The notes beneath the pieces were generated by a model. The model did no database searches. It saw only the letters and a program-made list of their open reading frames with translations, and was not told where the DNA came from. A program made the translations under genes and the position numbers. This document shows positions 2,821 to 30,992 of a DNA stretch of 32,495 bases, piece after piece (positions within the stretch are counted from its first letter, which is position 1; every line of letters starts with the position of its first letter). The DNA is from a virus: IMG/VR virus record IMGVR_UViG_3300025168_000348, positions 1 through 32,495 of that record; one strand, written 5' to 3'.

Positions 2821-5219
2821 TGAACAGAAGTTTGATGGGCAGACAAATGTTTGCTAAAGGCGGAGAAGCAAAATCATTCCCGGATTACAGCGGAGATGGA
2901 CAAATAACGCAAAAAGACATTTTGATGGGTCGTGGTGTGTTGCCTATGCAAGAAGGTGGTACGGTTCCCATGGACCCCATGATGGCTGACCCCATGATGG
3001 CTGATCCCATGATGGCTGATCCCATGATGGACCCTTCTTCAGGTTTTACTCCTGAAAACAATCCAGAAGCTGTGCAAAATGCAATGATGGCCGCCGCTGA
3101 AAACTTTGGCAACTTAGATGATGCTGATGATTATGAAAGCATGATCAATATGATCCGGGGCGATCAAGCTCCGATGGCAGAAAGAGTTAATGAGCTAGCT
3201 GAACTAGTTGGTTTAGAGGACGCCCAACAGACTCCGCAGTCCGTTGTTGCTCTTATACAACCTGTAATGTTAATGACTAATTTGGACGAAGGTATAGGAA
3301 GTATTGCACAAGGTGCGATGGATCAGGAAATGACCGGGGATATGGCCGGAGGTATCATGTCTACCGTCAATATGGATTCTGGACCTGAAATGAGCCTTGA
3401 CCCTAACATGGACCCTCAAATGGGAATGGGGGTTGGTAACGAACCGCCTGTAAATTTTAGGTTTGGCGGCCCGGTCGCCAGAATGCAAGACGGCGGCGAA
3501 TCAAGACTTTCCCAGTTGTTTGCAGAACAACAAGGTGTTTTAAATCAAAACTTTGCGCCTCGATCGGGTGTTGATGCTGATTTAGAACGTCAAAAAGAAC
3601 TTACCGAAGCGCAAATGTTGTTTGATGTTGCCGGTACGGCCTTGGCATTTGCAACACCCGGATCTCGTCAGATGAGTCCTGCACAAAGATTAGCTGAAGC
3701 GGCCACTGAAACCAAACTTTTTGACAAACTAGGTGCTCGAGCACAAGGTCAATTCGAAGCTGAAAAAGCCTCTAAAGAAGCTTTGCGGTCTGAAAAACGC
3801 GACCTCGATTTATTAGCGTTTAAAGGCGCTCAAGATCAGCTAGATCGTGAGCTTCAAATGACTCCTGCTAAATTGTTTGATTTTAAAGTTGTTGATGGAC
3901 AAATAGTTAAAACTAACAATAAAACAGGCGGTGTTAGTTTAGCATTTACCGGAAGAGACAAAATAGATTTTTTGACTATGGGCGACAACATCCTCGCCGC
4001 AAACCCTATTAGCGGCAACGTAGAAGTAGCTTTTACAGACACTTCTCCTAATTTAAAAGTTTTATCTAAAGGTCAACAAATTATAGATGCAGACACAGCC
4101 GAAGTAATTTACACAGCACCTGAAAACGCGCAATTGGAAAAAATGGGTAACTTCTTAGTTGACACTACTAATCGGACGCCTGACGGGAATGCCACTGTAA
4201 TTTTTGAAGCGCCTGATTATGAAGTAGATGAAATAAACGGTCAGTTAGTTCAATACAAAAAAGGCGATCCCGATTCGGCGGTTGCTATCTTTGGCGAAGA
4301 AGGTATTGATATTGATCCTGTTTACATGGTCCAAACAGATATGAACACCGGTGTAAAAACCACTTTTGATGCTACAACGCCAAATGGTGCGGCTATGTTG
4401 AAAAACGCTAACCAAGCTAATCAACAAGCCGGGTCGACTGTATTTACAATAGGTAAATTAAGTTCAGATAAAACACCTTCTGCACAAGCATTCAACCTAG
4501 GCAGTGAAATAGTGCTAAGTTTTGATGGTGGAAGAACTTACGTAAACTCTTTGGGCGTTACAACGGCCATGCCTACTACCGGCGCCGTTCCTGTAAGTGA
4601 CACCATCGCGTCGGAAGTAATGAAGAACCAACGCATATCGCAAAGAGCCGGTGAAGAATCAAATGCTTTTTACGATCGTTTTTATGAAGAGCAAGGTTAT
4701 GAAGCAGAAGATAGAAAGTTGTTTAGAGATACCGCTAAAGCGGCTATGAATGGAACAGGATTTGCGGCTAAACTACGAAGTGCCGTAGATAAAACTTTAG
4801 GTCAACTAGGGGTTGACTACGGAGAAGAGACTGAAGCTGACAAGCAATATTTACGTGCAATTCGACAAATGACAAAAACCGCTCTAATTGTAAATCCACG
4901 GTTCCCGGTTGCTGAATTATCAAAAGTTGAAGATTTGTATCCAGATGTAGACAGTTTTTTTGTAAGCCCTGATTCTCAGGTTAATCGGTTAAGAGAGTTG
5001 AAAAGAGTTGTTCTAGCGCAAAAGGAACATAACTTAACCAAGTTAGCAGGAGGCGCTTTAAGTGCCGATGACAACGCTAAAGTATTAGCAAATAACCAAG
5101 AGATAAGTCGATTGTTGATGTATATAGGGCCTTTGGGCGTTGGGTCTACGTCTTACGGTGGTAATAAAGAAGAAATGGAAGCTTCATTTAAGAAATTGCA
5201 AGAAAAAGTAAGAAATTAA
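2817..5219 (+). CDS. Large virion-associated protein with EF-hand-like loop
   Basis: An 800-residue protein whose ATG overlaps the stop of the preceding gene by four bases, which suggests translational coupling. The N-terminus is Met/Gly-rich. It holds a calcium-loop-like DYSGDGQITQKD at residues 23-34, with Asp/Ser/Asp at loop positions 1, 3 and 5, Gly at 6 and Asp at 12, as in EF-hand or dockerin loops. A Met-Met-Ala-Asp-Pro tandem repeat follows around residues 52-70. Short Gly-Gly motifs (MFAKGGEAK, RFGGPVARMQDGG) punctuate the first 230 residues. The rest is a mixed-composition domain with no catalytic motif I recognise. Position between two giant structural proteins suggests a late virion component. 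The exact role is unknown. Confidence 0.8.
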   Translation: MMNRSLMGRQMFAKGGEAKSFPDYSGDGQITQKDILMGRGVLPMQEGGTVPMDPMMADPMMADPMMADPMMDPSSGFTPENNPEAVQNAMMAAAENFGNLDDADDYESMINMIRGDQAPMAERVNELAELVGLEDAQQTPQSVVALIQPVMLMTNLDEGIGSIAQGAMDQEMTGDMAGGIMSTVNMDSGPEMSLDPNMDPQMGMGVGNEPPVNFRFGGPVARMQDGGESRLSQLFAEQQGVLNQNFAPRSGVDADLERQKELTEAQMLFDVAGTALAFATPGSRQMSPAQRLAEAATETKLFDKLGARAQGQFEAEKASKEALRSEKRDLDLLAFKGAQDQLDRELQMTPAKLFDFKVVDGQIVKTNNKTGGVSLAFTGRDKIDFLTMGDNILAANPISGNVEVAFTDTSPNLKVLSKGQQIIDADTAEVIYTAPENAQLEKMGNFLVDTTNRTPDGNATVIFEAPDYEVDEINGQLVQYKKGDPDSAVAIFGEEGIDIDPVYMVQTDMNTGVKTTFDATTPNGAAMLKNANQANQQAGSTVFTIGKLSSDKTPSAQAFNLGSEIVLSFDGGRTYVNSLGVTTAMPTTGAVPVSDTIASEVMKNQRISQRAGEESNAFYDRFYEEQGYEAEDRKLFRDTAKAAMNGTGFAAKLRSAVDKTLGQLGVDYGEETEADKQYLRAIRQMTKTALIVNPRFPVAELSKVEDLYPDVDSFFVSPDSQVNRLRELKRVVLAQKEHNLTKLAGGALSADDNAKVLANNQEISRLLMYIGPLGVGSTSYGGNKEEMEASFKKLQEKVRN
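2976..3035 (+). repeat. 15-nt tandem repeat encoding PMMAD
   Basis: Four consecutive 15-base units starting at 2976, 2991, 3006 and 3021 encode Pro-Met-Met-Ala-Asp, the last unit diverging to Pro-Met-Met-Asp-Pro. The first three differ only at the third base of the Asp codon. This looks like recent in-frame slippage in the N-terminal segment of the 800-residue virion protein. Confidence 0.8.
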
Positions 5220-5231
5220 AGGTTTTTTGTT

Positions 5232-8200
5232 ATGCAAGAAAACGAAATTCAAAATTTAAAAATTGATCCAGTTACTTTTTCTAAAGAAGAAATGGACGAA
5301 TATGTTCAAAGGTTTTCTGATTACGAAGGCGGTCCGGCACGAGCTATTGCAGAAACTTTGGCTTCTGAATTCGAAACTAAGAATCCTGCTTTAAATTACA
5401 ACTTATTAAAAAGCGGAAATTCCCCGTTATTTAAAGACCCTGATTACGCGGTTTTTGCAGACGGCTTAACTGATGAACAAATGCTTATGTTGTTTATTCA
5501 GGATGAGCAAGGAAATCCTATTAGAGAAAAAGGTTTTTTTGATGGGGGTGTTTCAAGAAGGGTTGTTCCGGCTACAACAGGTGCCGCGGGTTTTGCCGGC
5601 GGTTTTAAAGCAGGTGTTGCCGCACAATCTCCTATACCTCCCGCCGGTCCTGCGGCACTAGTCGCAAAAGCAGTCATTCCTGTTGCAACAGGTATTCTAG
5701 GATCTTTATTCGGATACACCGTAGGTGAGGAAGCACAAGAAGCTGTTATTGGACCAGAATCTCCTACATTACCTAGTGATCGTAGCGCCGTGGCCGCAGG
5801 TCAAACTTTTACGGACGTTGTGTCTGGGGTTTTAACTCCGGGAATGATGCCTAAAAATGTTGTATTAGGTGGAGGAGCTTATTTAAAAAATCTGAGCAAA
5901 ATGCGCGAAGAAATGCTAACTCCTGAAGGAGCGTTGCGCTCAACAGGTGATGTTGGTGAGGATATAAACAGAGCATTTTCTCCTGAAGCAAAAGCCGTGC
6001 TCAATAAAGATCCTCTAGGAGCTCGATTAAATCGCGGGATAGAAAATTTTGTAGGAAGACAATCCGCAGATATGTCAGAAAAAGGAATTTTAGGGTTTAC
6101 TAAAACTGAAGCTAAGTTTGGAGCAGGAGCCGCGGGAGGTGCTTATTTAGCAGAAGAAATTGCTCCGGGGTCAGGCGGTGCACGTTTTGCGGGTGAAATG
6201 GCCGGAGGATTAGGCAGTAATTTGGTAGTTTCCCCACTAATGCTTCTAGTAAACAATAGACAAAATATTATTGATGCTAGTAAATCAAAAGTTCGTGGTT
6301 TAACAAAATCAGGTCGACAGCAAAATGCGGTTAATCGGATTGCTGAAATATTAGAGGCTTCTGAAACAGAAGATCTTGCTGACATTATTCGCAGATTAGA
6401 AACTGCAAATTTAGGTGATTCCCTAGTAGATGAGGCGGGTCAAGTCATACCACAAACTGCCGCAATGAAAAGTGGTAGTCCTATTCTAATGGCAATAGAA
6501 GCTTCATTAGATCAGTTAGGATCAGATCTAGGTCAACAACGCTCTACCTCTTCCAAAGCAAGCATTCAGGCTATTAGGACTTTAGTAGTAGGTATGGCAA
6601 GGTCTGGAGATCAACAACAATTACAGGTTGCGGCTGATCTTGCACAAGATATTTTTACTTCTGCACAAACTAAACGATTGACAGAAGCTACAGATCGTGT
6701 ACTTTCCGCTTTCGAGTCAGTAGAAGGACGTAATCCACAAAACAATATGCAATTATCTGAAAAATTGTATGATGTTGTTCGACAACAAATAAAATTTGCC
6801 AGAGCTAGAGAAAACGAACTCTGGAAAAATGTTAAAAATGTAACAATTCCTATTGACGACATAAGTGATGGATATAAACCTCCTTTTATAACCGCTTGGG
6901 ATGATCTTTTACCGGATACGCCTGAAGCTAGAGATGAGGTTATAGGTCCTCTTCGTGCGTTAAATAAATTTGTAAATCGCAAAAGCGCAGAGTTTGGGTT
7001 AGATGCTGATGGGGTTCCTACAGCCGGTGCAACTTTATCTACCCGCGAGCTAACAGACATGCGTTCTATTGCTTTGAACGAAGCTAGAAAATTACGTGCT
7101 TCAGGTGACAACAACGCGGCACGAATTGCAGAAGAATTTTCTGAAAGTCTTTTGGACACATTAGACAACGTGCAAGGATTAACAAAAACAGGAGTTTTTG
7201 TCGATAATCAAACTGATTACGAAATGGCCCGAGCTTATTCTAGGTCTTTGAACGATACTTTTACACGTGCTTTTGCCGGAGAAGTTTTAGATAAATCTAA
7301 AAAAGGTGGAACTCGAACGCCGCCAGAATTACTCGCTCACAGATTGTTTCAAGGTGGCGCTGATCCTACTTATGTGCGAAGTGCGCAAATTTCAGAAATC
7401 GGCAACTTTGCAATAGAGCAAGGACTGCCCGATGCGGATCTCACTGTCAACACTTTGGCCGGCGTAACTGAAGCTTTATTAAGAAATGCAAGGTCTGCTA
7501 CTTTTGATCAAAATACTGGTGCAATCAATCGTAAAGCTTTAGAAAAGTGGATGAATGCTAACGAGTCTGTGCTAGAACAATTTCCAAATTTAAAACGAGA
7601 TTTAAATAATTCTTTATTAGCCGATCAAATGTTATCTGAAGCGTATATTACAAATAAAGCGCAAGATGCAGGTCTAAAAGGTCAAGTCACTTTCAAAAAC
7701 TTGTTGAGCAGTAGCAGAGATGGTGGTACAGAGAGCCCTACAACAGCGGTTGCAATGGCGCTATCAAATGCTCAAAAAACGCCTATAAAACAACTTAATA
7801 ATTTACTTGAAGTAGCAAATAGTCCGGCAGATGAGGCGTTAAGACAAGAAGCTCTAATAGGACTAAAGTCATCTATTTTGGAATGGGCTTTCACAAAAGG
7901 CGGTGCAACTTCTAAGGGTTTTAGCCCACAAGTTTTATTTAAAACTATGTTTGAAGAAATGCCGAAAGCTGAAGGACGTATTAGTTTAGCTGATTGGATG
8001 ACATCCAATAATGTCATTGGTAAAGACGACTTAAAAAATCTTAAAACTTACGTTGCTGAAATGGTGCGTTACGAAGGCGCACAAGCTGACGGCACTTTAG
8101 ATGAGTTAGTTGAAAGAGCCGGTCCTGTCCTTGATATGTATTTAGCGATATCCGGTTCTGTTTTAGGTACTGGAGTACAACGAGCCATGGGTATGGAAGG

Positions 8201-8723
8201 TGGTCCCGGATCTTTAATTGCGGCAGGTGCAGGTGCAAAAGCAATGCGTAAAGTTTTTGACGATTTACCGGCAAGTGCAAAAATAGATGTTATGACAGAA
8301 GTAATGGAAAACCCAAAATTGTTGGCCATGATGTTGCGAAAGTCTTCTACAGACACAGAAAAAACAAAACAAGCTTTAAACATACGATCTGCATTTATAG
8401 ATGCAGGGATATTATATCCACTTCGTAGAACAATTCCGTTGACTACGAGTGACGAAGAGATAGTTATAGAAGAAGAAACTCAAGCGCCTGTGCAAGTACA
8501 ACCACAAAGAAGTCCGCCGCCTGTACAAGTACAATCACAGCCGCCACCGGCTCCACAACTTCAAGTACCGATGCCACCTCCCACCCCGGCACCGGCACCT
8601 GTCGCGCAATCCACGGCTCCGAATCCGGGGCCCGTGGATCGCTCTATGTATGCGGCAATGTTTCCCAACGATGTTGCTTCAAGTTTGATTCGTCAACAGG
8701 GAATTGGAAGCTTGATGGGATAA
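5232..8723 (+). CDS. Giant internal virion / ejection-like protein
   Basis: A 1163-residue protein starting 12 bases after the previous stop. Residues about 110-165 form a Gly/Ala-rich hydrophobic stretch with short membrane-like segments, and a similar Gly/Ala stretch recurs near residues 295-340. The centre is mostly charged and helical. Residues about 1080-1140 form a Pro/Gln/Val-rich linker with PPP and PVQVQ repeats, followed by a conserved-looking C-terminal tail (RSMYAAMFPNDVASSLIRQQ). Large size, membrane-like patches and position at the end of the structural block resemble ejected internal virion proteins of podoviruses, but I see no lytic transglycosylase signature. The role is inferred from context. 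Confidence 0.75.
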   Translation: MQENEIQNLKIDPVTFSKEEMDEYVQRFSDYEGGPARAIAETLASEFETKNPALNYNLLKSGNSPLFKDPDYAVFADGLTDEQMLMLFIQDEQGNPIREKGFFDGGVSRRVVPATTGAAGFAGGFKAGVAAQSPIPPAGPAALVAKAVIPVATGILGSLFGYTVGEEAQEAVIGPESPTLPSDRSAVAAGQTFTDVVSGVLTPGMMPKNVVLGGGAYLKNLSKMREEMLTPEGALRSTGDVGEDINRAFSPEAKAVLNKDPLGARLNRGIENFVGRQSADMSEKGILGFTKTEAKFGAGAAGGAYLAEEIAPGSGGARFAGEMAGGLGSNLVVSPLMLLVNNRQNIIDASKSKVRGLTKSGRQQNAVNRIAEILEASETEDLADIIRRLETANLGDSLVDEAGQVIPQTAAMKSGSPILMAIEASLDQLGSDLGQQRSTSSKASIQAIRTLVVGMARSGDQQQLQVAADLAQDIFTSAQTKRLTEATDRVLSAFESVEGRNPQNNMQLSEKLYDVVRQQIKFARARENELWKNVKNVTIPIDDISDGYKPPFITAWDDLLPDTPEARDEVIGPLRALNKFVNRKSAEFGLDADGVPTAGATLSTRELTDMRSIALNEARKLRASGDNNAARIAEEFSESLLDTLDNVQGLTKTGVFVDNQTDYEMARAYSRSLNDTFTRAFAGEVLDKSKKGGTRTPPELLAHRLFQGGADPTYVRSAQISEIGNFAIEQGLPDADLTVNTLAGVTEALLRNARSATFDQNTGAINRKALEKWMNANESVLEQFPNLKRDLNNSLLADQMLSEAYITNKAQDAGLKGQVTFKNLLSSSRDGGTESPTTAVAMALSNAQKTPIKQLNNLLEVANSPADEALRQEALIGLKSSILEWAFTKGGATSKGFSPQVLFKTMFEEMPKAEGRISLADWMTSNNVIGKDDLKNLKTYVAEMVRYEGAQADGTLDELVERAGPVLDMYLAISGSVLGTGVQRAMGMEGGPGSLIAAGAGAKAMRKVFDDLPASAKIDVMTEVMENPKLLAMMLRKSSTDTEKTKQALNIRSAFIDAGILYPLRRTIPLTTSDEEIVIEEETQAPVQVQPQRSPPPVQVQSQPPPAPQLQVPMPPPTPAPAPVAQSTAPNPGPVDRSMYAAMFPNDVASSLIRQQGIGSLMG

Positions 8724-8755
8724 TGTTTTACAATATATTTAACGAGATACGATAC

Positions 8756-8938
8756 ATGGCTACAGTAAAAGAGGCGCTAATTCGCTTGGAAACACACGAA
8801 AAAGAATGTTTGGTGCGATACACCAACATCGAAAAAAGATTAGATCACGGGAAAGCTAAAATGGATAGGCTTGAGCTAATGTTGTGGGGCGTGTATCCTT
8901 TTATTTTAGGTGCTATTTTTATATCAAAAATGTTTTAG
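8756..8938 (+). CDS. Small membrane protein, holin/XhlA-like
   Basis: A 60-residue protein with an N-terminal charged helix (VKEALIRLETHEKECLVRY), a heptad-like middle and one C-terminal hydrophobic segment (LMLWGVYPFILGAIFISKMF). This layout, a soluble coiled coil followed by one C-terminal transmembrane helix, matches hemolysin XhlA-like accessory lysis proteins. I chose the ATG at 8756 because the family-like sequence begins there. An in-frame ATG at 8723, overlapping the previous stop as TAATG, would add 11 residues and is possible. It probably acts in the inner membrane with the next gene during lysis; this is inference from topology and position. Confidence 0.7.
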   Translation: MATVKEALIRLETHEKECLVRYTNIEKRLDHGKAKMDRLELMLWGVYPFILGAIFISKMF

Positions 8939-8947
8939 GAGAGATTT

Positions 8948-9250
8948 ATGTCAGACGGTACTATTAGTATACCTACATGGGCAATGCCCTTTGTGATAAG
9001 TGGTTTAGGTGTAGCTATTGCTTACGGATCTTCTATGGCTCAAGCGGATGCCACTAAAGAAGAAGTCAAGCGTATAGAGGTCATTGTAAAAGAAACAGCA
9101 AAGCAAGCAACTGAAAACGGGCAAGCTGTTGCTGTGACGGAAACCAAGGTAGATGCCATTGTGGAAAGCTTGGCAAGACAAGAAAAAATACAAGAAAAAA
9201 CTAACGAACAAATTCAAGCGTTGGTTGCGGCATTATTGGCTAAAGGATGA
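8948..9250 (+). CDS. Small membrane-anchored coiled-coil protein, possible holin
   Basis: A 100-residue protein preceded by an AGGAGAG ribosome-binding site. Residues about 8-28 (IPTWAMPFVISGLGVAIAYG) form one transmembrane segment near the N-terminus. The remaining 70 residues are polar and helical, with repeated Lys/Glu/Thr, and likely form a coiled coil. It sits between the XhlA-like gene and two small exported-looking genes, and it overlaps the next gene by ATGA. Topology and neighbours suggest a holin or spanin-like lysis protein, but no family motif proves this. Confidence 0.65.
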   Translation: MSDGTISIPTWAMPFVISGLGVAIAYGSSMAQADATKEEVKRIEVIVKETAKQATENGQAVAVTETKVDAIVESLARQEKIQEKTNEQIQALVAALLAKG

Positions 9251-9444
9251 AACAAATAGCATTCGCCCTTGTGTTTTTTATGCAAGATGGGAGTGTTGAC
9301 GAATCCTTAACTAGGTTGTATGCAAAAAAACATAACTGCCTATACATTTGCCAAGAGCTATCCAAGTCATCTATAAACTACACACCGATTAAGTGCACTT
9401 GCGAGGTGCGCTTTGTTGATGCTAAAACAGTTCTAATTCGATGA
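9247..9444 (+). CDS. Small Cys-containing protein, paralogue of the next gene
   Basis: A 65-residue protein overlapping its neighbours by four bases on both sides. It begins with a short hydrophobic segment (MKQIAFALVFFM) and then contains a Cys-x-Tyr-x-Cys pattern (NCLYICQEL) and a Cys-Thr-Cys pair. The downstream gene has the same layout: hydrophobic start, Cys-x-Tyr, Ser-rich helix, late Cys. The two look like diverged duplicates of a family of tiny phage proteins. Function unknown. The position beside membrane lysis genes suggests a late, perhaps envelope-directed product. Confidence 0.6.
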   Translation: MKQIAFALVFFMQDGSVDESLTRLYAKKHNCLYICQELSKSSINYTPIKCTCEVRFVDAKTVLIR

Positions 9445-9653
9445 GAATTTTAGTTTTTGCATTAATGGTAGAAACATTGAACGCAGGGGTGGTGGTCGAG
9501 ACAGAAGAGTTTGGACTTTTTCGGGATATACATCGATGTACGTATTTTAGCCGAGCTATATCGATGCAATCAAACGGCCAATGGGAAATCCCTATACGAA
9601 GTTTTTGCAAGCCTATGTGGCTAGACAAAGATACAGACAAAGAGCTCTTTTAA
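9441..9653 (+). CDS. Small Cys-containing protein, paralogue of the previous gene
   Basis: A 70-residue protein starting inside the previous stop (ATGA). It has a short hydrophobic N-terminus (MRILVFALMVETLNAG), then RCTYFSRAIS and a later single Cys followed by PMWLDKDT. The order of features parallels the preceding gene, supporting an old tandem duplication. The hydrophobic start is short for a signal peptide, so export is only possible. Function unknown. Confidence 0.6.
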   Translation: MRILVFALMVETLNAGVVVETEEFGLFRDIHRCTYFSRAISMQSNGQWEIPIRSFCKPMWLDKDTDKELF

Positions 9654-9761
9654 ATGAACGTATCTATGCAAGATTGGAGTTGGGGTAGCGATACATGGAA
9701 GGGTTTATTTTTGGCGCTTATTCCTTTTTTTTGGACAATCTATATAGTAATTACTAGATAA
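9654..9761 (+). CDS. 35-residue single-pass membrane peptide
   Basis: An ORF starting immediately after the previous stop (TAA then ATG). It encodes a Trp-rich N-terminus (MQDWSWGSDTWKG) followed by one hydrophobic helix (LFLALIPFFWTIYIVI) and a terminal Arg. Direct abutment to the upstream gene supports translation. It is probably a membrane peptide of the lysis cluster; function unknown. Confidence 0.5.
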   Translation: MNVSMQDWSWGSDTWKGLFLALIPFFWTIYIVITR

Positions 9762-9793
9762 AATTTATTATAAATATTTTCGCACAGAGGAAC

Positions 9794-9928
9794 ATGGATA
9801 TGGCAGACCTTACTAAAGCTCAGACAAAAAAAATGATTAAAGAGTTGAAAAACGCATCTCGGCTTCACGCTAATCAGGCAAAAACTTTAGAAAAAACTTT
9901 GAAGAAAATCAAGAAAGCCAGTTCTTAG
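9794..9928 (+). CDS. 44-residue basic helical protein
   Basis: It is preceded by a good Shine-Dalgarno sequence (AGAGGAAC ending one base before the ATG). The product is Lys-rich and strongly helical (LTKAQTKKMIKELKNASRL, then LEKTLKKIKKASS). A second ATG lies two codons in. Its last 20 bases overlap the 3' end of the minus-strand helicase gene, and no terminator is visible between these convergent genes. It may bind DNA or acidic partners; function unknown. Confidence 0.55.
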   Translation: MDMADLTKAQTKKMIKELKNASRLHANQAKTLEKTLKKIKKASS

Positions 9929-11366
9929 TGTTTTCACCGAGCACTTGACCTGCTAAATTTACTTTGTTCCGCAACGCCTGTAATATTTTTTCATCAATCG
10001 TGCCCGGCGCAACTAGATCTATGTACGTCACTGCTTTCTTTTGCCCTATTCTATGCGCACGATCCTCAGACTGTAGCCTTATCTCCAAGTCATAGCTGTT
10101 ACTGTAATAAATGACCGTGTTTGCTTCGGTCAGAGTAATGCCGTAACCTCCTGTTTTTGGTTGCCCTACAAAGAATCGTAGTTCAGACTCGGGCTTCTGA
10201 AACTCCTCTACAATGTTTTGTCGTTCATCTTGTTCCGTATCTCCATAATAAGTAGCCACGGCTCCCGGTCCAAATTTATCTTGCAAACTTTTAGCTATCT
10301 CTTTGATATCATGCGTGTATGAAGCCCAGATAATAACTTTTCCCTGTAGCTCGTCTGTAATTTCCAAAAGTTCTTTCATTCGGTTGTTTGGTAATAACTC
10401 TATTTCTCCATCATCTGGTTGCAAAAATCCGCAACAGATTTGTTGTAACCTCATAATTTGCGTTAACACACTAGCGGTCGTAGCAAGCTCTCCGCTTTCT
10501 AGTTTAGCAAGAGCTAGCTTTTTCATTTGGTTATAAACCCTAATTTGTTCGTCAGTAAGGGTAATGTCTCGACGTATGTACAACTTTTCTGGTAAGTCTA
10601 AACAATCTATTTTAAGCACTCTGTTGCTAAACTTATCTAGTTTCTCGTTAAGCTCATCTAACCGACGGTAACCCGTAATTTCTTGAAAACTACGTTGTCC
10701 CATCACCCGGCGTTGCACAATCGAGTACCGACTTTGAAATGCAAAGTAACTATTAAACCCTAAAGCCTTGTCTGTCAGAAACAAGCACTGGCTAAACAAA
10801 TCCATTGGGCTTTTTGTGATCGGACTTCCGGTTAGTATCCTGCGATACTTGCTTATCTTATTCATTCCTATAATGTTTTTAGTCCGTGCGGCTTGTCTGT
10901 TTTTGATTGTGGTCGACTCATCAACAATCACTAGGTTTTGTGGGTTTTTGTTTAAAAATTCGTAACCTTTTCGTGCGGCTCTCGGCGTTGAAAAAGCTTC
11001 TGTGTTCATGACAAATATTTTAAGATCCTCGTGATCTCTGTATATAAAATCGTCTAACTCATCGTTATATTTTCGTGCAGAACTAGGTGTCCAACGTAAG
11101 ATAGATTTCTCTATGCGGTCAGGCACGTGCGTGGGTATCTCACCACGGATCCAATTGTCATAAACTCCTTTTGGAGCTATGACTAAACATGCTTTTATCT
11201 TTTTTTCTTCGTACAACATAGACATTGTGTCTAACGCTACTTTAGTTTTACCCGTTCCCATTTCCATCAATAAAGCGTAAAACGGTTTGTCCCACGAGTC
11301 CGATAATGCTTGACGTTGGTGTGCAAAAGGTTGCGTTTTGTACTCAAAATTATTTATTTTTTGCAT
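9909..11366 (-). CDS. SNF2-family DNA helicase/translocase
   Basis: A 485-residue superfamily 2 ATPase. Motif I is MGTGKT at residues 36-41, motif II is DEST at 149-152, motif III-like TGSP at 179-182, and motif VI is RAHRIGQ at 436-442, the characteristic SNF2 signature. It has no extra accessory domain, so it is a minimal SNF2 motor such as many phages carry next to replication genes. It would move along double-stranded DNA using ATP, for example to clear proteins from DNA or aid replication or recombination. It is the only minus-strand gene here and is divergent from the replication operon. Its promoter (TTGACA-N16-TATACT, 11422 down to 11395) overlaps the operon promoter. An AAGGAG site lies about 11 bases ahead of the ATG. 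Confidence 0.93.
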   Translation of the reverse strand: MQKINNFEYKTQPFAHQRQALSDSWDKPFYALLMEMGTGKTKVALDTMSMLYEEKKIKACLVIAPKGVYDNWIRGEIPTHVPDRIEKSILRWTPSSARKYNDELDDFIYRDHEDLKIFVMNTEAFSTPRAARKGYEFLNKNPQNLVIVDESTTIKNRQAARTKNIIGMNKISKYRRILTGSPITKSPMDLFSQCLFLTDKALGFNSYFAFQSRYSIVQRRVMGQRSFQEITGYRRLDELNEKLDKFSNRVLKIDCLDLPEKLYIRRDITLTDEQIRVYNQMKKLALAKLESGELATTASVLTQIMRLQQICCGFLQPDDGEIELLPNNRMKELLEITDELQGKVIIWASYTHDIKEIAKSLQDKFGPGAVATYYGDTEQDERQNIVEEFQKPESELRFFVGQPKTGGYGITLTEANTVIYYSNSYDLEIRLQSEDRAHRIGQKKAVTYIDLVAPGTIDEKILQALRNKVNLAGQVLGENTKNWLS

Positions 11367-21813: not shown

Positions 21814-22443
21814 ATGTCTAAGAAAGCCCTGCCGAAATCCGCACCGGTTGTCGAGAAGAAAAAGTCTGGAAGACCGCGGATAAACAAGAATTCTATCCTG
21901 ACTCGCAAGCAAGAACTTTTTGTTAAAGAGTTGGTTAGCAAAGATGGACAGATAACTTTGAGGGAAGCCGCGATCAACGCGGGTTATCCGGCATCGTCCG
22001 CGCACACTAGAGCCTACGAACTAACTAACCCCCACATTTCTCCTCATGTTGTCAACGCGATTAAAAGTTATCGTAACGAACTAGACGAAAAGTTTGGCGT
22101 TACATTCCAACGGCATCTTAGAGATCTGCAAAGCATAAGAGATCTGGCTATACAAAATGGTGCATACTCTGCCGCAGTGCAAGCCGAGTATCGGCGGGGA
22201 CAAGCTCATGGTGATATTTATGTCAGCAAGTCTGAGATCAGGCACGGCAGTATCGATTCGATGAGTAAAGAAGAGGTGGAAAAAGCTTTAATGGAACTAA
22301 AGGATCAATATGCCCCGGTCACCATCGACATTACACCCGAGTCCAATAACACCAGTAACCGTGACAAAGCGAGAAGCCGCCTTTTATCAGCAGATGAAGA
22401 CCGCGGCGAAGACATCGAAGACGCGACGCCTGTCGTTCACTAG
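21814..22443 (+). CDS. terS: Terminase small subunit
   Basis: A 209-residue protein. After a basic, AT-hook-like N-terminus (KKKSGRPRINK) comes LTRKQELFVKELVSKDGQIT then LREAAINAGYPASSAHTRAY, the helix-turn-helix DNA-binding domain of phage terminase small subunits. The middle is a helical oligomerisation region (FQRHLRDLQSIRDLAIQNGA), and the C-terminus is acidic and polar. It should recognise the packaging site and load the large subunit. It is separated from the large subunit gene by about 3.4 kb of small genes, which is unusual. Its last 134 bases overlap the next ORF in another frame. Confidence 0.85.
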   Translation: MSKKALPKSAPVVEKKKSGRPRINKNSILTRKQELFVKELVSKDGQITLREAAINAGYPASSAHTRAYELTNPHISPHVVNAIKSYRNELDEKFGVTFQRHLRDLQSIRDLAIQNGAYSAAVQAEYRRGQAHGDIYVSKSEIRHGSIDSMSKEEVEKALMELKDQYAPVTIDITPESNNTSNRDKARSRLLSADEDRGEDIEDATPVVH

Positions 22444-25539: not shown

Positions 25540-25790
25540 CCGCGCCATGGGTCGCGGTCCATTGCTCAAACGTATGAGCCAAAAACCGTGGGCGGCGGTC
25601 ACTGGTCGACGGGTTGCGCACCCAGTGCCGTGTTCCGTGGTCCGTGGTCCATCCATCCGGGTCGATAACCGGATAAAATGCCCGGGTCCCCCGTGTATCG
25701 GGTCATTCGGCGTGGTCCATGGCTCGAGAATCGGCGCAAATCGTGCGCGGTCCGCGTGTCCGCGGGGACGAGGTCAAGGTCCATGTTTCT
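25540..25790. other. GC-rich noncoding field with GGTCCAT repeats
   Basis: About 250 bases clearly richer in G and C than the rest of the window. GGTCCAT occurs at 25556, 25646, 25714 and 25778, with further GGTCC at 25639 and 25749. ORFs exist on both strands here but have no ribosome-binding site and mirror the repeats. Lying directly ahead of the large terminase gene, it is a plausible packaging (cos or pac) or replication site. Confidence 0.45.
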
Positions 25791-25822
25791 CACAAATATT
25801 TAATAAAGATTCCATATGAGCG

Positions 25823-25850
25823 TTAACTGTCTTATATTAGCGGGTAAAAT
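25823..25850 (+). promoter_or_regulatory. Possible promoter of the packaging genes
   Basis: TTAACT (25823-25828), a 16-base spacer and TAAAAT (25845-25850) lie ahead of the parS palindrome and the large terminase gene. Both hexamers are imperfect. Confidence 0.3.
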
Positions 25851-25864
25851 CGCATATATTTGCA

Positions 25865-25880
25865 TGTTCCACGTGGAACA
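25865..25880. promoter_or_regulatory. Perfect parS (ParB-binding) palindrome
   Basis: TGTTCCACGTGGAACA is a perfect 16-base palindrome and matches the conserved bacterial chromosomal parS form (tGTTnCACGTGnAACa), in the GTTCC variant known from pseudomonads. It sits 17 bases before the large terminase start codon. No parA or parB gene is in the window, so host ParB would be the binder. The sequence match is direct; the role is inferred. Confidence 0.75.
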
Positions 25881-25897: not shown

Positions 25898-27358
25898 ATG
25901 AAAAATTCGTATACAAGCATAAATGATGAAAAAAAATTAAAGTTAGAATTGCGTTTAGCGCAGTTAAAAAAGAATGAAATGTGTAGAAAAAATTTTTTAA
26001 TTTTTGTAAAAAACATGTGGCCCGAGTTTATTGCAGGACGTCACCATAAAATTATTGCTGAAAAATTAGAACGGGTCGCGAGCGGCGATTTAAAGAGATT
26101 GATTATTAACATGGCGCCGAGGCACACGAAGAGTGAATTTGCGTCATTTTTGTTTCCTGCGTGGATGATGGGCAGGAATCCTAAGATGAAGATTATTCAG
26201 GCGACTCACACGACTGAATTGGCTGTAAATTTTGGACGAAAGACAAAAAATCTGTTGGAGACGGACGAATATAAGGAAGTTTTTGACAATGTAAAGTTAG
26301 CTTCTGACAGTAAGGCGTCGGGTCGTTGGGACACGAGCGCGGGCGGTATGTATTATGCGGTTGGTGTTGGGTCGAATTTAGCGGGTCGTGGTGGTGATTT
26401 AATTATTATTGATGATCCTCACTCGGAGCAAACGGCAATGTCGGCGGCGGGCTTTGATGATGCTTGGGATTGGTACACAGGTGGTCCTAGACAGCGTTTA
26501 CAGCCCGGTGGGTCGATTGTATTGGTACAGACTAGGTGGTCTGAGAAGGACATGACGGGTCAGTTGTTGAAGTCTATGGCAAAAGATCCGTTGGCGGATC
26601 AATGGGAGGTTGTGGAGTTACCGGCTATTTTTGAGGATGGTAATCCGTGTTGGCCGGAGTTTTGGAGTCTTGAGGATTTGACCGCGGTCCGCGCTTCTAT
26701 TCCTAATAGTAAGTGGAATGCGCAGTATCAGCAGAATCCTACGGGTGAAGAGAATGCTATTGTTAAGCGTGAGTGGTGGAATGTTTGGGAAAAGGACGAG
26801 GTTCCTAATTTAGAGTATGTAATTCAGAGTTATGATACGGCTTTTAGTAAGAGGGAGACGGCAGATTATAGTGCGATTACTACGTGGGGTGTATTTTATC
26901 CTAATGAATCTGGGACTCCGGCTTTAATTTTGTTGGATAGTAAGAAGGGTCGTTGGGATTTTCCTGAGTTAAAGAACAAGGCGATGGAGGAGTATCGTTT
27001 TTGGGACCCCGATACCGTCATTGTTGAGGCGAAGGCTAGCGGTATGCCTCTGACGCAGGAGATGAGAAATATGGGAATTCCTGTGGTTAACTTTACCCCA
27101 TCTAGGGGTAATGATAAAGTTACGCGTGTACATTCTGTATCGCCTTTATTTGAGGCCGGGATGGTGTGGGCTCCTGACACTGTTTTTGCTGATGAGTTGA
27201 TAGAGGAGGTTGCGGCGTTTCCTAATGGTGAGCATGATGATTTGGTTGATAGTATGACTCAAGCGTTGATGCGTTATCGTCAGGGTAATTTTGTGCAGTT
27301 GCCGACAGATGATTGGGAAGAAGAAGAAAACTCTGTTAACATGAGGGTTTACTACTAA
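25898..27358 (+). CDS. terL: Terminase large subunit
   Basis: A 486-residue packaging motor and nuclease. The ATPase has an atypical Walker A, APRHTKSE (residues 73-80), as in many terminases, Walker B LIIIDDPH (168-175) and a coupling-like QTRW. The RNase H-like nuclease has Asp313 (QSYDTAF), Asp323, Glu377 (VIVEAKASG) and Asp447/448/451 (EHDDLVDS). It cuts concatemers and pumps DNA into the prohead through the portal. The ribosome-binding site is poor (GGGT), and the parS palindrome lies in the leader, so bound ParB could lower its expression. The codons are unusually G- and T-rich compared with the upstream region. Confidence 0.95.
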   Translation: MKNSYTSINDEKKLKLELRLAQLKKNEMCRKNFLIFVKNMWPEFIAGRHHKIIAEKLERVASGDLKRLIINMAPRHTKSEFASFLFPAWMMGRNPKMKIIQATHTTELAVNFGRKTKNLLETDEYKEVFDNVKLASDSKASGRWDTSAGGMYYAVGVGSNLAGRGGDLIIIDDPHSEQTAMSAAGFDDAWDWYTGGPRQRLQPGGSIVLVQTRWSEKDMTGQLLKSMAKDPLADQWEVVELPAIFEDGNPCWPEFWSLEDLTAVRASIPNSKWNAQYQQNPTGEENAIVKREWWNVWEKDEVPNLEYVIQSYDTAFSKRETADYSAITTWGVFYPNESGTPALILLDSKKGRWDFPELKNKAMEEYRFWDPDTVIVEAKASGMPLTQEMRNMGIPVVNFTPSRGNDKVTRVHSVSPLFEAGMVWAPDTVFADELIEEVAAFPNGEHDDLVDSMTQALMRYRQGNFVQLPTDDWEEEENSVNMRVYY

Positions 27359-28529: not shown

Positions 28530-30992
28530 ATGGCTGAAGAAGATAACAAAACGGTAGGTAGTTTGATGGATAGAAATGTCCCATCTGAGCTACGTGAAGA
28601 GGATATAAGAGCAGAGATAGAGCTAGAAATACCAGATTCACAGAACGATGTTATGGAAATGGTTGAGATGGATCCCTCTATGGATGGTGAGATAGAGATG
28701 ACGGCTGATGACGAGGGAGGCGTTTTAATTGATTTTGATCCGCAAGACACTCGTGGCTTTGGCAGTGATTTTTACATGAATTTAGCAGAAGAGATCCCGG
28801 ATCGCGAATTGTCTAGGATAGCTAGTGATTTATTAGGAGAGTTTGATAGCAACAAAGCTAGTAGAGAGGAGTGGGAAGAGACTTATGCCAATGGTTTAGA
28901 GCTACTTGGTTTCTCTTATCAGGAGCGCACAATGCCTTTCCGCGGTGCTTCTGGTGTAACACATCCTCTGTTGGGTGAGGCCGCTACACAATTCCAAGCA
29001 CAGGCTTTTAATGAGTTATTACCGCCTAGTGGTCCGGTGCGGACTGTTGTGATGGGCAAAGAAACGCGTCAAAAACAACAACAATCACAGCGCGTTAAGC
29101 AGTTTATGAATTATTACATTACAAGTGTAATGGAAGATTTTACTCCGGATATGGATCAAATGTTGTTTTATTTACCATTAGCCGGTAGTACTTTCAAAAA
29201 AGTTTATTATGATGAAAATTTAGATAGAGCCGTTAGTAAGTTTGTACCTGCTGAAAACTTAGTAGTACCTTATGAAACATCTGATTTAGAAACTTGTCCT
29301 AATATTACACAAGTTATCCGCATGTCGTTGAATGATTTGCGCAAGCAACAAGTTGCAGGTTTTTATTTAGATATAGATGTTATACCGGCGCAAGCAGAAC
29401 TTGACTCTATTACAGAAGAAATTAACTTAATAGACGGTCTAGAGCCTTCTCAAATAGATTATGACTGCACTATTTTAGAGTGCCATGTTGATTTAGATTT
29501 AGAAGGCTACGAAGATTTAGATGAAAGCGGTGAACCTACTGGAATTAAAATACCATACATCGTGACGTTGTCGCAAGATAACGGTCAAGTACTTGCTGTA
29601 AGGAGAAACTATAACGAGGATGATTCTAAAAAACAAAAAATTCAATATTTTGTGCATTACAAATTTCTTCCGGGTTTCGGTTTTTATGGATTGGGTCTTA
29701 TTCATACTATTGGTGGCTTGTCTCGTACTGCCACAGCGGCTCTCAGACAGCTCATCGATGCCGGTACGCTGTCTAACTTACCTGCCGGATTCAAGGCCCG
29801 AGGTATGCGAATTCGTGATGACGACGAACCGTTACAGCCGGGAGAGTTTCGAGATGTAGACGCACCGGGAGGCGCGATTCGTGATAGTTTGATGCCGTTA
29901 CCGTTTAAGGGACCGGATCAGACGTTATTCCAGTTGTTAGGATTTGTTGTTGATGCCGGGCAACGGTTCGCGACTATTACAGATTTAAAAGTTGGCGATG
30001 GTAATCAGCAAGCGGCGGTAGGTACAACTATTGCAATGTTGGAGCAGGGCTCACGGGTCATGAGTGCTGTGCATAAAAGATTGCATTATGCCATGCGGTT
30101 GGAGTTTAAGATTCTTGGTCGCGTGATGCACGAGAGTTTACCTCAGACGTACCCGTATTCTGTTGCGGGTGATGATGCTTCTGTGATGGCTAGTGATTTT
30201 GATGATCGCGTAGATATTTTACCGGTTAGTAATCCTAATATATTTAGTCAAGCGCAACGTATTACGATGGCTCAGACTAAGTTAGAGTTGGCAGGTGCCG
30301 CTCCTGAGTTGCATAATATGCACGAGATTTATCGTGATATGTATGAAGCGTTGGGTGTGACTGATGTAGATCGGATAATGAAGTCGTTACCGGATGCCGA
30401 CCCGCGGCCCACGGATCCTGCGCAAGAGAACATAAATGCGTTGGATATGATGGATTTGCAAGCATTTGAAGGTCAGGATCATCAGTCCCACATTATGGCT
30501 CACCTTATATTTGGTGGTACACCGTTGGTTGCTAACTTGCCGCCAGTTGCTGTAGCGTTGCAGAAGCATGTTATGCAACACGTTAAGATGGCCGCTCGAG
30601 AACAAGCGGCGGTAGCTTATATGCAACAGATGGAGGTTCGTGATGGCGAGCCGGCAAGTCCGGAGGAGATGTTAGAGATAGAGGCTTTAACGGCACAGTT
30701 TGTTGCACAAGGTATGCAAATGGTTAAAGATATGTCTCAGCAGTTAGCAGGTGGTGGCGAAGAAGCCGGTCCGGATCCGTTAATAGCATTGAAAGAGAAA
30801 GAATTGGAGATTAAAGCGCAGTCTGAGCAGTCTGATACTGAATTAGACCAAGGCAAGCTTCAATTAGATCAAGAGTCGTTACAAATGCGCAACCGTCAGT
30901 TTGGTGAGCGTATGGCGTCGCAAGAAAAGCAGACTCAAGCCCGTATTAGTGCGGCAAGAGAACGTGAAATTTTGAAACAACAAGGAAAATAA
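28530..30992 (+). CDS. Portal protein, P22-like
   Basis: An 820-residue protein with AGAGGAAT ahead of the ATG. It fits the P22-type portal family in length and features: LSRIASDLLGEFDSNKASRE near residue 95, RGASGVTHPLL, QAQAFNELLPPSGPVRTVVM, FYLPLAGSTFKKVYYD and FGFYGLGLIHTIGGLSRTAT. The long C-terminal part is helical and Gln-rich (LDQGKLQLDQESLQMRNRQF), like the barrel extension of podoviral portals. It forms the dodecameric ring through which DNA enters and leaves and to which tail parts attach. The first 70 residues are acidic. It is followed within two bases by a small basic gene. Confidence 0.88.
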   Translation: MAEEDNKTVGSLMDRNVPSELREEDIRAEIELEIPDSQNDVMEMVEMDPSMDGEIEMTADDEGGVLIDFDPQDTRGFGSDFYMNLAEEIPDRELSRIASDLLGEFDSNKASREEWEETYANGLELLGFSYQERTMPFRGASGVTHPLLGEAATQFQAQAFNELLPPSGPVRTVVMGKETRQKQQQSQRVKQFMNYYITSVMEDFTPDMDQMLFYLPLAGSTFKKVYYDENLDRAVSKFVPAENLVVPYETSDLETCPNITQVIRMSLNDLRKQQVAGFYLDIDVIPAQAELDSITEEINLIDGLEPSQIDYDCTILECHVDLDLEGYEDLDESGEPTGIKIPYIVTLSQDNGQVLAVRRNYNEDDSKKQKIQYFVHYKFLPGFGFYGLGLIHTIGGLSRTATAALRQLIDAGTLSNLPAGFKARGMRIRDDDEPLQPGEFRDVDAPGGAIRDSLMPLPFKGPDQTLFQLLGFVVDAGQRFATITDLKVGDGNQQAAVGTTIAMLEQGSRVMSAVHKRLHYAMRLEFKILGRVMHESLPQTYPYSVAGDDASVMASDFDDRVDILPVSNPNIFSQAQRITMAQTKLELAGAAPELHNMHEIYRDMYEALGVTDVDRIMKSLPDADPRPTDPAQENINALDMMDLQAFEGQDHQSHIMAHLIFGGTPLVANLPPVAVALQKHVMQHVKMAAREQAAVAYMQQMEVRDGEPASPEEMLEIEALTAQFVAQGMQMVKDMSQQLAGGGEEAGPDPLIALKEKELEIKAQSEQSDTELDQGKLQLDQESLQMRNRQFGERMASQEKQTQARISAAREREILKQQGK

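Follow-up and report, generated by a model that had tools for sequence, protein, structure and literature searches.

The window, by which we mean the whole stretch of DNA analysed here, is a 32.5-kb linear virus record (32,495 nucleotides), and because its relatives measure ~55–62 kb we regard it as a genome fragment. A 16-bp palindrome of the chromosomal parS type lies in it between a promoter-like element and the gene for the large terminase subunit, and the features of the locus are as follows:

Positions 21814–22443, + strand: small terminase subunit gene, terS (phrog_51, E 6e-11; PF03592, E 7.7e-6)
Positions 25823–25850, + strand: sigma-70-like promoter, TTAACT-16-TAAAAT (promoter scan), within a conserved block
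Positions 25865–25880, no strand assigned: chromosome-type parS palindrome, TGTTCCACGTGGAACA, 16 bp, 0 mismatches
Positions 25898–27358, + strand: large terminase subunit gene, terL (phrog_38, E 1.4e-109)
Positions 28530–30992, + strand: portal (head-to-tail connector) gene (phrog_1216, E 4e-52)

The palindrome starts 15 bp downstream of the sigma-70-like promoter, a call that is weak on its own because one such element was found against a mean of 1.0 in shuffled sequence, and its 3′ edge lies 17 bp from the start of terL. Upstream of terL, a block at positions 25822–25858 (ttaactgtcttatattagcg..gtaaaatcgcatata) is conserved among relatives and is perhaps a late promoter; in the window and its clade, 34 of the 56 exact sites are preceded by the block pattern. 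The portal gene marks the far end of the zone within which the site shifts among relatives. (Ahead of the site, GC-rich non-coding DNA at positions 25550–25784 holds four copies of a 13-mer resembling GGTC..GGTCCAT at spacings of 90, 68 and 64, and a GGTCCATGTTTCTC-like piece is seen again in relatives.)

The 16-bp palindrome fits the consensus of chromosome-type parS sites, and the original prediction that a perfect parS palindrome precedes the large terminase gene is thereby confirmed at positions 25865–25880. In particular, P. aeruginosa parS2 and parS3 are printed letter for letter as TGTTCCACGTGGAACA (PMC4368675), and the same word is given as the parS of P. putida in a review that nowhere uses the word 'phage' (PMC7022226). 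A motif scan of the window returned the palindrome as the sole match at up to three mismatches in 32,495 bases, and shuffled windows gave a mean of 0.12 matches at that threshold. Calculated from the base composition of the window, the chance expectation of an exact match is 6e-6 for TGTTCCACGTGGAACA and 3e-5 for TGTTYCACGTGRAACA. We reject a chance origin of the site on the strength of the 6e-6 expectation, the solitary match and the shuffled control words; the earlier judgement that a 16-mer match by chance is very unlikely in ~32 kb was sound.

The isolates related to the window by TerL (54–62% identity) and portal are the Pelagibacter phages HTVC027P and HTVC023P and the phages 023Pt_psg01 and DSL-LC04, with the window TerL being 59–62% identical to that of HTVC027P, 023Pt_psg01 and DSL-LC04. 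With the HTVC023P-type podoviruses (HTVC027P and HTVC023P) the window shares TerL, portal, helicase, primase, PolA and gene order; unlike the window, HTVC027P carries the one-mismatch form CGTTTCACGTGAAACA 4.1 kb before terL, and HTVC023P carries no site at up to two mismatches. 023Pt_psg01, DSL-LC04 and Caulobacter phage RW (searched whole) were likewise devoid of a site at up to two mismatches, as were the portions retrieved of MW202675 and of Planktothrix phage Pag-Yong1.

Each search for relatives took the best 80 rows, and three further clades were fetched with 10-kb flanks. Among the whole records of the best 80 TerL relatives, 51 held a site within one mismatch of TGTTYCACGTGRAACA (24/40 plus 27/40), and a reversed-pattern control was found in 0 of the same 80; the 29 without a site include records of 33.6, 31.0 and 25.2 kb, most relative records being fragments. 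In the fetched DNA, a site within one mismatch was present at 49 of the 80 best loci of the window clade, 40 of 80 of the L106 clade and 49 of 80 of the L148 clade, and at 5 of the 80 best loci of the SAR11-infecting HTVC027P clade, all five in the form CGTTTCACGTGAAACA. With 200 composition-matched shuffled palindromes, the number of records hit per clade averaged 0.0 to 0.06 and never exceeded 8. Two marine control clades, the CRP-901 type (a distant relative by portal) and the HTVC010P type (whose DNA is only 33% GC), had the site at 0/80 and 0/80 best loci, and we reject on these counts the idea that it is a general habit of marine phages. Among the matches listed for viral contigs with the two exact words (120 and 118 contigs), 23 and 34, respectively, encode the HTVC023P-type family, these sets being samples rather than counts. 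The original prediction had named conservation of the site and of its position in related phages as a check: the two nearest relatives (L002 and L003) have the exact word in the same place, at −35 and −34 from terL, but some relatives lack it.

In three clades we compared pairs of sites (up to three mismatches) whose 30-bp flanks were 55–85% identical. Site identity exceeded flank identity in 189/189, 61/61 and 189/189 pairs, counts that are biased toward conservation because the sites were picked by pattern. Copies lying in frame within coding sequence, which were also found by pattern (up to two mismatches), are less open to this bias. These copies encode V-S/P-R-E-T in 38 distinct contexts, with Val spelled GTT in 38/38, Arg CGT in 38/38, Glu GAA in 38/38 and Thr ACA in 37/37; the swap between Ser and Pro occurs via a base that is variable in parS, and the adjoining codons vary. 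A search that started from the peptide, V[SP]R[EG]T, across long frames in the four clades turned up 60 occurrences, of which 59 have the parS spelling when near-copies are counted. As judged from this codon usage, selection at the site is shown to act on DNA rather than on protein, and the comparison of relatives indicates that the palindrome is a conserved, selected element.

The position of the site shifts among the phages. In the window clade it is located before terL at about −34, −52, −77 (accompanied by another copy at −53) or −120, and in the close relatives L005 (one mismatch) and L006 (exact) it is located 2.7–2.9 kb after the terL start. Its usual place in the L106 clade is 2.4–4 kb after the portal start, and in the L148 clade it is in frame in an ORF after terL, at ~+1.9 kb, sometimes with an extra copy before terL. 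On a FastTree TerL tree of 158 rows, with 54 rows that had too little flank left unclassed, the position classes required a minimum of 22 changes, compared with an average of 59.9 after shuffling; the position is inherited, yet it has changed many times. Early silencing of terL, one of the roles originally suggested, does not survive as a family-wide function, since the site may stand before terL, after the portal gene or inside coding sequence. (In two relatives, L021 at 2924–2963 and L069 at 643–682, paired parS variants lie 24 bp apart, in an order that is swapped between them.) When the 20 records of at least 45 kb were searched whole, 7 held exact sites, 4 held one-mismatch sites and 9 held none. 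The one-mismatch sites are that of HTVC027P at −4.1 kb and those of L009, L238 and L399, which are far from terL on the linear contig.

Profile searches of the window gave no match to PF02195 (ParB_N), PF13614 (ParA-type AAA_31) or PF17762 (HTH_ParB), in agreement with the original prediction that it holds no partition genes. Because the window is a fragment, we base the absence of parAB on longer relatives as well. PF02195 had no match among 29 records (the window, 24 relatives and the four isolates), among a further 26 from the family, or in two sets of 30 and 20 other site-bearing records, many of them outside the family; PF13614 and PF17762 each matched 0 of 27 records. Many of the searched records are fragments, the longest from the family being 51–63 kb, in addition to the four complete isolate genomes. 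In positive controls, PF02195 had matches in 10 of 14 control genomes, and phrog_38 recovered terL in 7 of 10 virus records. Neither the phage parA nor the phage parB of a self-contained phage ParABS was detected by these profile searches.

In bacteria of the same habitat, words of this type do lie beside parAB. The SAR11 single-cell genome AG-404-L13 (L523) carries TGTTTCACGTGAAACA 576 bp before parA, with parB adjoining, and two alphaproteobacterial MAGs (L526 and L527) carry exact sites ~0.6–1.1 kb before parA, near parAB; ParA and ParB of hosts were sought here by regular-expression motif rather than by profile. A scan of the whole AG-404-L13 genome gave a match only on contig C2, the carrier of the chromosomal parAB, and a phage contig in the same cell had no site in the 21 kb fetched. 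By the same motif search, a fetched SAR86 MAG and fetched Verrucomicrobiota MAGs had chromosomal sites without a ParA- or ParB-like ORF in the fetched stretch. MAG contigs with a near TerL fell in bins of Verrucomicrobiota (L449, L451 and L475), Rhodobacteraceae (L450), Rhodospirillales (L498), Maricaulis (L452) and others; the Verrucomicrobiota bins are a possible host hint from binning alone, and we draw no host from any bin because binning of phage contigs is unreliable.

We propose that the palindrome is an orphan parS (an "orphan centromere"), that is, a site onto which the infected bacterium's own ParB would load, and we put the probability of this reading at about 0.78. Recruitment of host ParB, as originally suggested, stands as the best explanation because a chromosome-type parS occurs in a family without detectable ParA or ParB, whereas binding itself is inferred from the sequences. 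We commit to loading of host ParB because we know of no other protein with this recognition word. That host ParB binds and spreads at the phage site appears highly probable. After entry of the phage DNA, host ParB would nucleate on the phage parS and form closed CTP-dependent clamps that slide along the adjoining terminase–portal region, and the phage genomes would become cargo of the host ParABS, and possibly SMC, machinery. ParB has been reported to load on incoming phage DNA carrying an engineered lambda-parS (PMC13190303), and a mimic parS on SGI1 to hijack the ParABS system of the IncC plasmid (PMC10954446).

What the phage might gain can be stated more tentatively. The phage genomes might be positioned, retained or evenly distributed within the cell, a role that fits the finding that single sites are the rule and that is a reasonable possibility although short of an even chance. 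HTVC027P, the isolate for which a transcriptome exists, is described as lytic, and its latent period of ~18 h (PMC12753301) may leave time for host division. Timing of late genes or of packaging by ParB clamps that spread from the site would fit its staying near terL and the portal gene, and seems to us unlikely. A further proposal, which we think rather unlikely, is that ParB serves as a copy-number timer: early clamps over the terminase–portal zone would hold off late transcription and packaging, replication would dilute a fixed ParB pool across the genomes, and packaging would be released once genomes outnumber ParB. Such a timer would account for a site that lies before, within or after genes yet near terL and portal.

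Exact sites also occur beyond the family. In a distant clade, in which the TerL of L732 is 27–29% identical to that of HTVC027P, HTVC023P, 023Pt_psg01 and DSL-LC04, the copies form arrays: L732 (10535–11462; −68 to −980) and L705 (2657–3444; −688 to −1460) each have five exact parS before terL, and L741 has three. The Alcaligenes phage vB_Af_QDWS535 (L810, OK172329), whose portal is 35% identical, carries the exact word at 47934–47949 (expected 1e-5), within a short annotated ORF (47878–48042) between leftward genes and the terminase region. Its host is Alcaligenes faecalis 10106, and the host-ParB reading is testable because this isolate combines a named host with an exact site. (A 28.9-kb viral contig, L185, holds five exact TGTTCCACGTGGAACA words at 4324–10457, 1–2 kb apart, and no ParB_N; by terL or portal it is not a family member within the stretch examined.)

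Several alternatives to an orphan parS that serves the phage's own genomes have to be weighed. The phage copies might drain ParB from the host origin, stop chromosome segregation and thereby free resources; titration of this kind is a consequence of ParB loading, not a different kind of site. Sites numbering one to three per genome, up to five in the distant clade, and multiplied by replication would suit such sabotage, as does the report that extra parS in SGI1 destabilise the plasmid whose ParB they use (PMC10954446). However, place should not matter for titration, yet the nine exact sites in contigs of at least 45 kb (seven such contigs have one) all fall in the interval from −1.8 to +5.0 kb relative to the terL start, and single sites are the rule; on balance we find titration unlikely.

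Alternatively, a transcription factor encoded by the phage or the host might use the palindrome as its operator at the late terL promoter, the likeness to parS being incidental. A position 15 bp after a promoter-like element is as expected of an operator, and many relatives have the site between the conserved block and terL. The site is, however, downstream of the TTAACTG element in some phages and upstream of it in others (in the −120 type the element follows the site), other clades have it after the portal gene or in frame inside a gene after terL, and no fixed place relative to a controlled promoter was found. Moreover, variation of the site is confined to bases that parS tolerates, and a Pfam search with 10 window proteins encoded around terL gave only two families above the cut-offs, Terminase_2 and GP88. 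An operator of terL only is rejected because the site moves among relatives, and the operator reading as a whole appears improbable.

Since the window is a fragment, the palindrome might serve a ParB-like protein that the phage encodes outside it, as part of an ordinary phage partition system, but the 0/29 and 0/26 counts for PF02195 take in near-complete contigs of 51–63 kb and the four complete isolates, and with PF17762 and PF13614 at 0/27 each we reject this very improbable reading. An RNA hairpin in the terL leader (attenuator, terminator or stability element) is extremely improbable and likewise rejected. Although a terminator-like stem is scored at the palindrome, asymmetric forms are common, the very frequent form TGTTCCACGTGAAACA (24 sites, L148 clade) breaking the perfect stem, other paired changes allowed in an RNA stem were not seen, and sites lie inside coding sequence.

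If the orphan parS reading is true, a widespread aquatic phage family exploits a bacterial centromere, linking infection to chromosome segregation, and natural phages exist whose DNA could be traced by host ParB, giving an entry to genome location and packaging timing in the cell. Phage-encoded parABS systems are already known (PMC7157519, PMC3585329), as is a phage genus with parB only (PMC10286716); in the open-access literature, to which our search was confined, we found no report of phages using chromosomal ParB via an orphan parS.

The window site uses the same 16-mer as the chromosomal ParABS systems, as in P. aeruginosa parS2 and parS3 (PMC4368675), and related variants lie beside parAB in marine bacteria; unlike those sites, it belongs to a phage, has no accompanying parA or parB, and neighbours terminase and portal genes. 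RedRock and its kin, which are extrachromosomal prophages, also carry parS on phage DNA, but they encode their own ParA and ParB, and the parS loci of RedRock are described as repeats of an 8-bp motif (PMC7157519). SGI1 is, like the window phage, a mobile element that has parS without parAB, and it uses the ParABS of another replicon (PMC10954446). However, SGI1 is an integrative element with a plasmid-type parS, whereas the site described here is of the chromosomal type and belongs to a phage family of which one isolate, HTVC027P, is described as lytic (PMC12753301).
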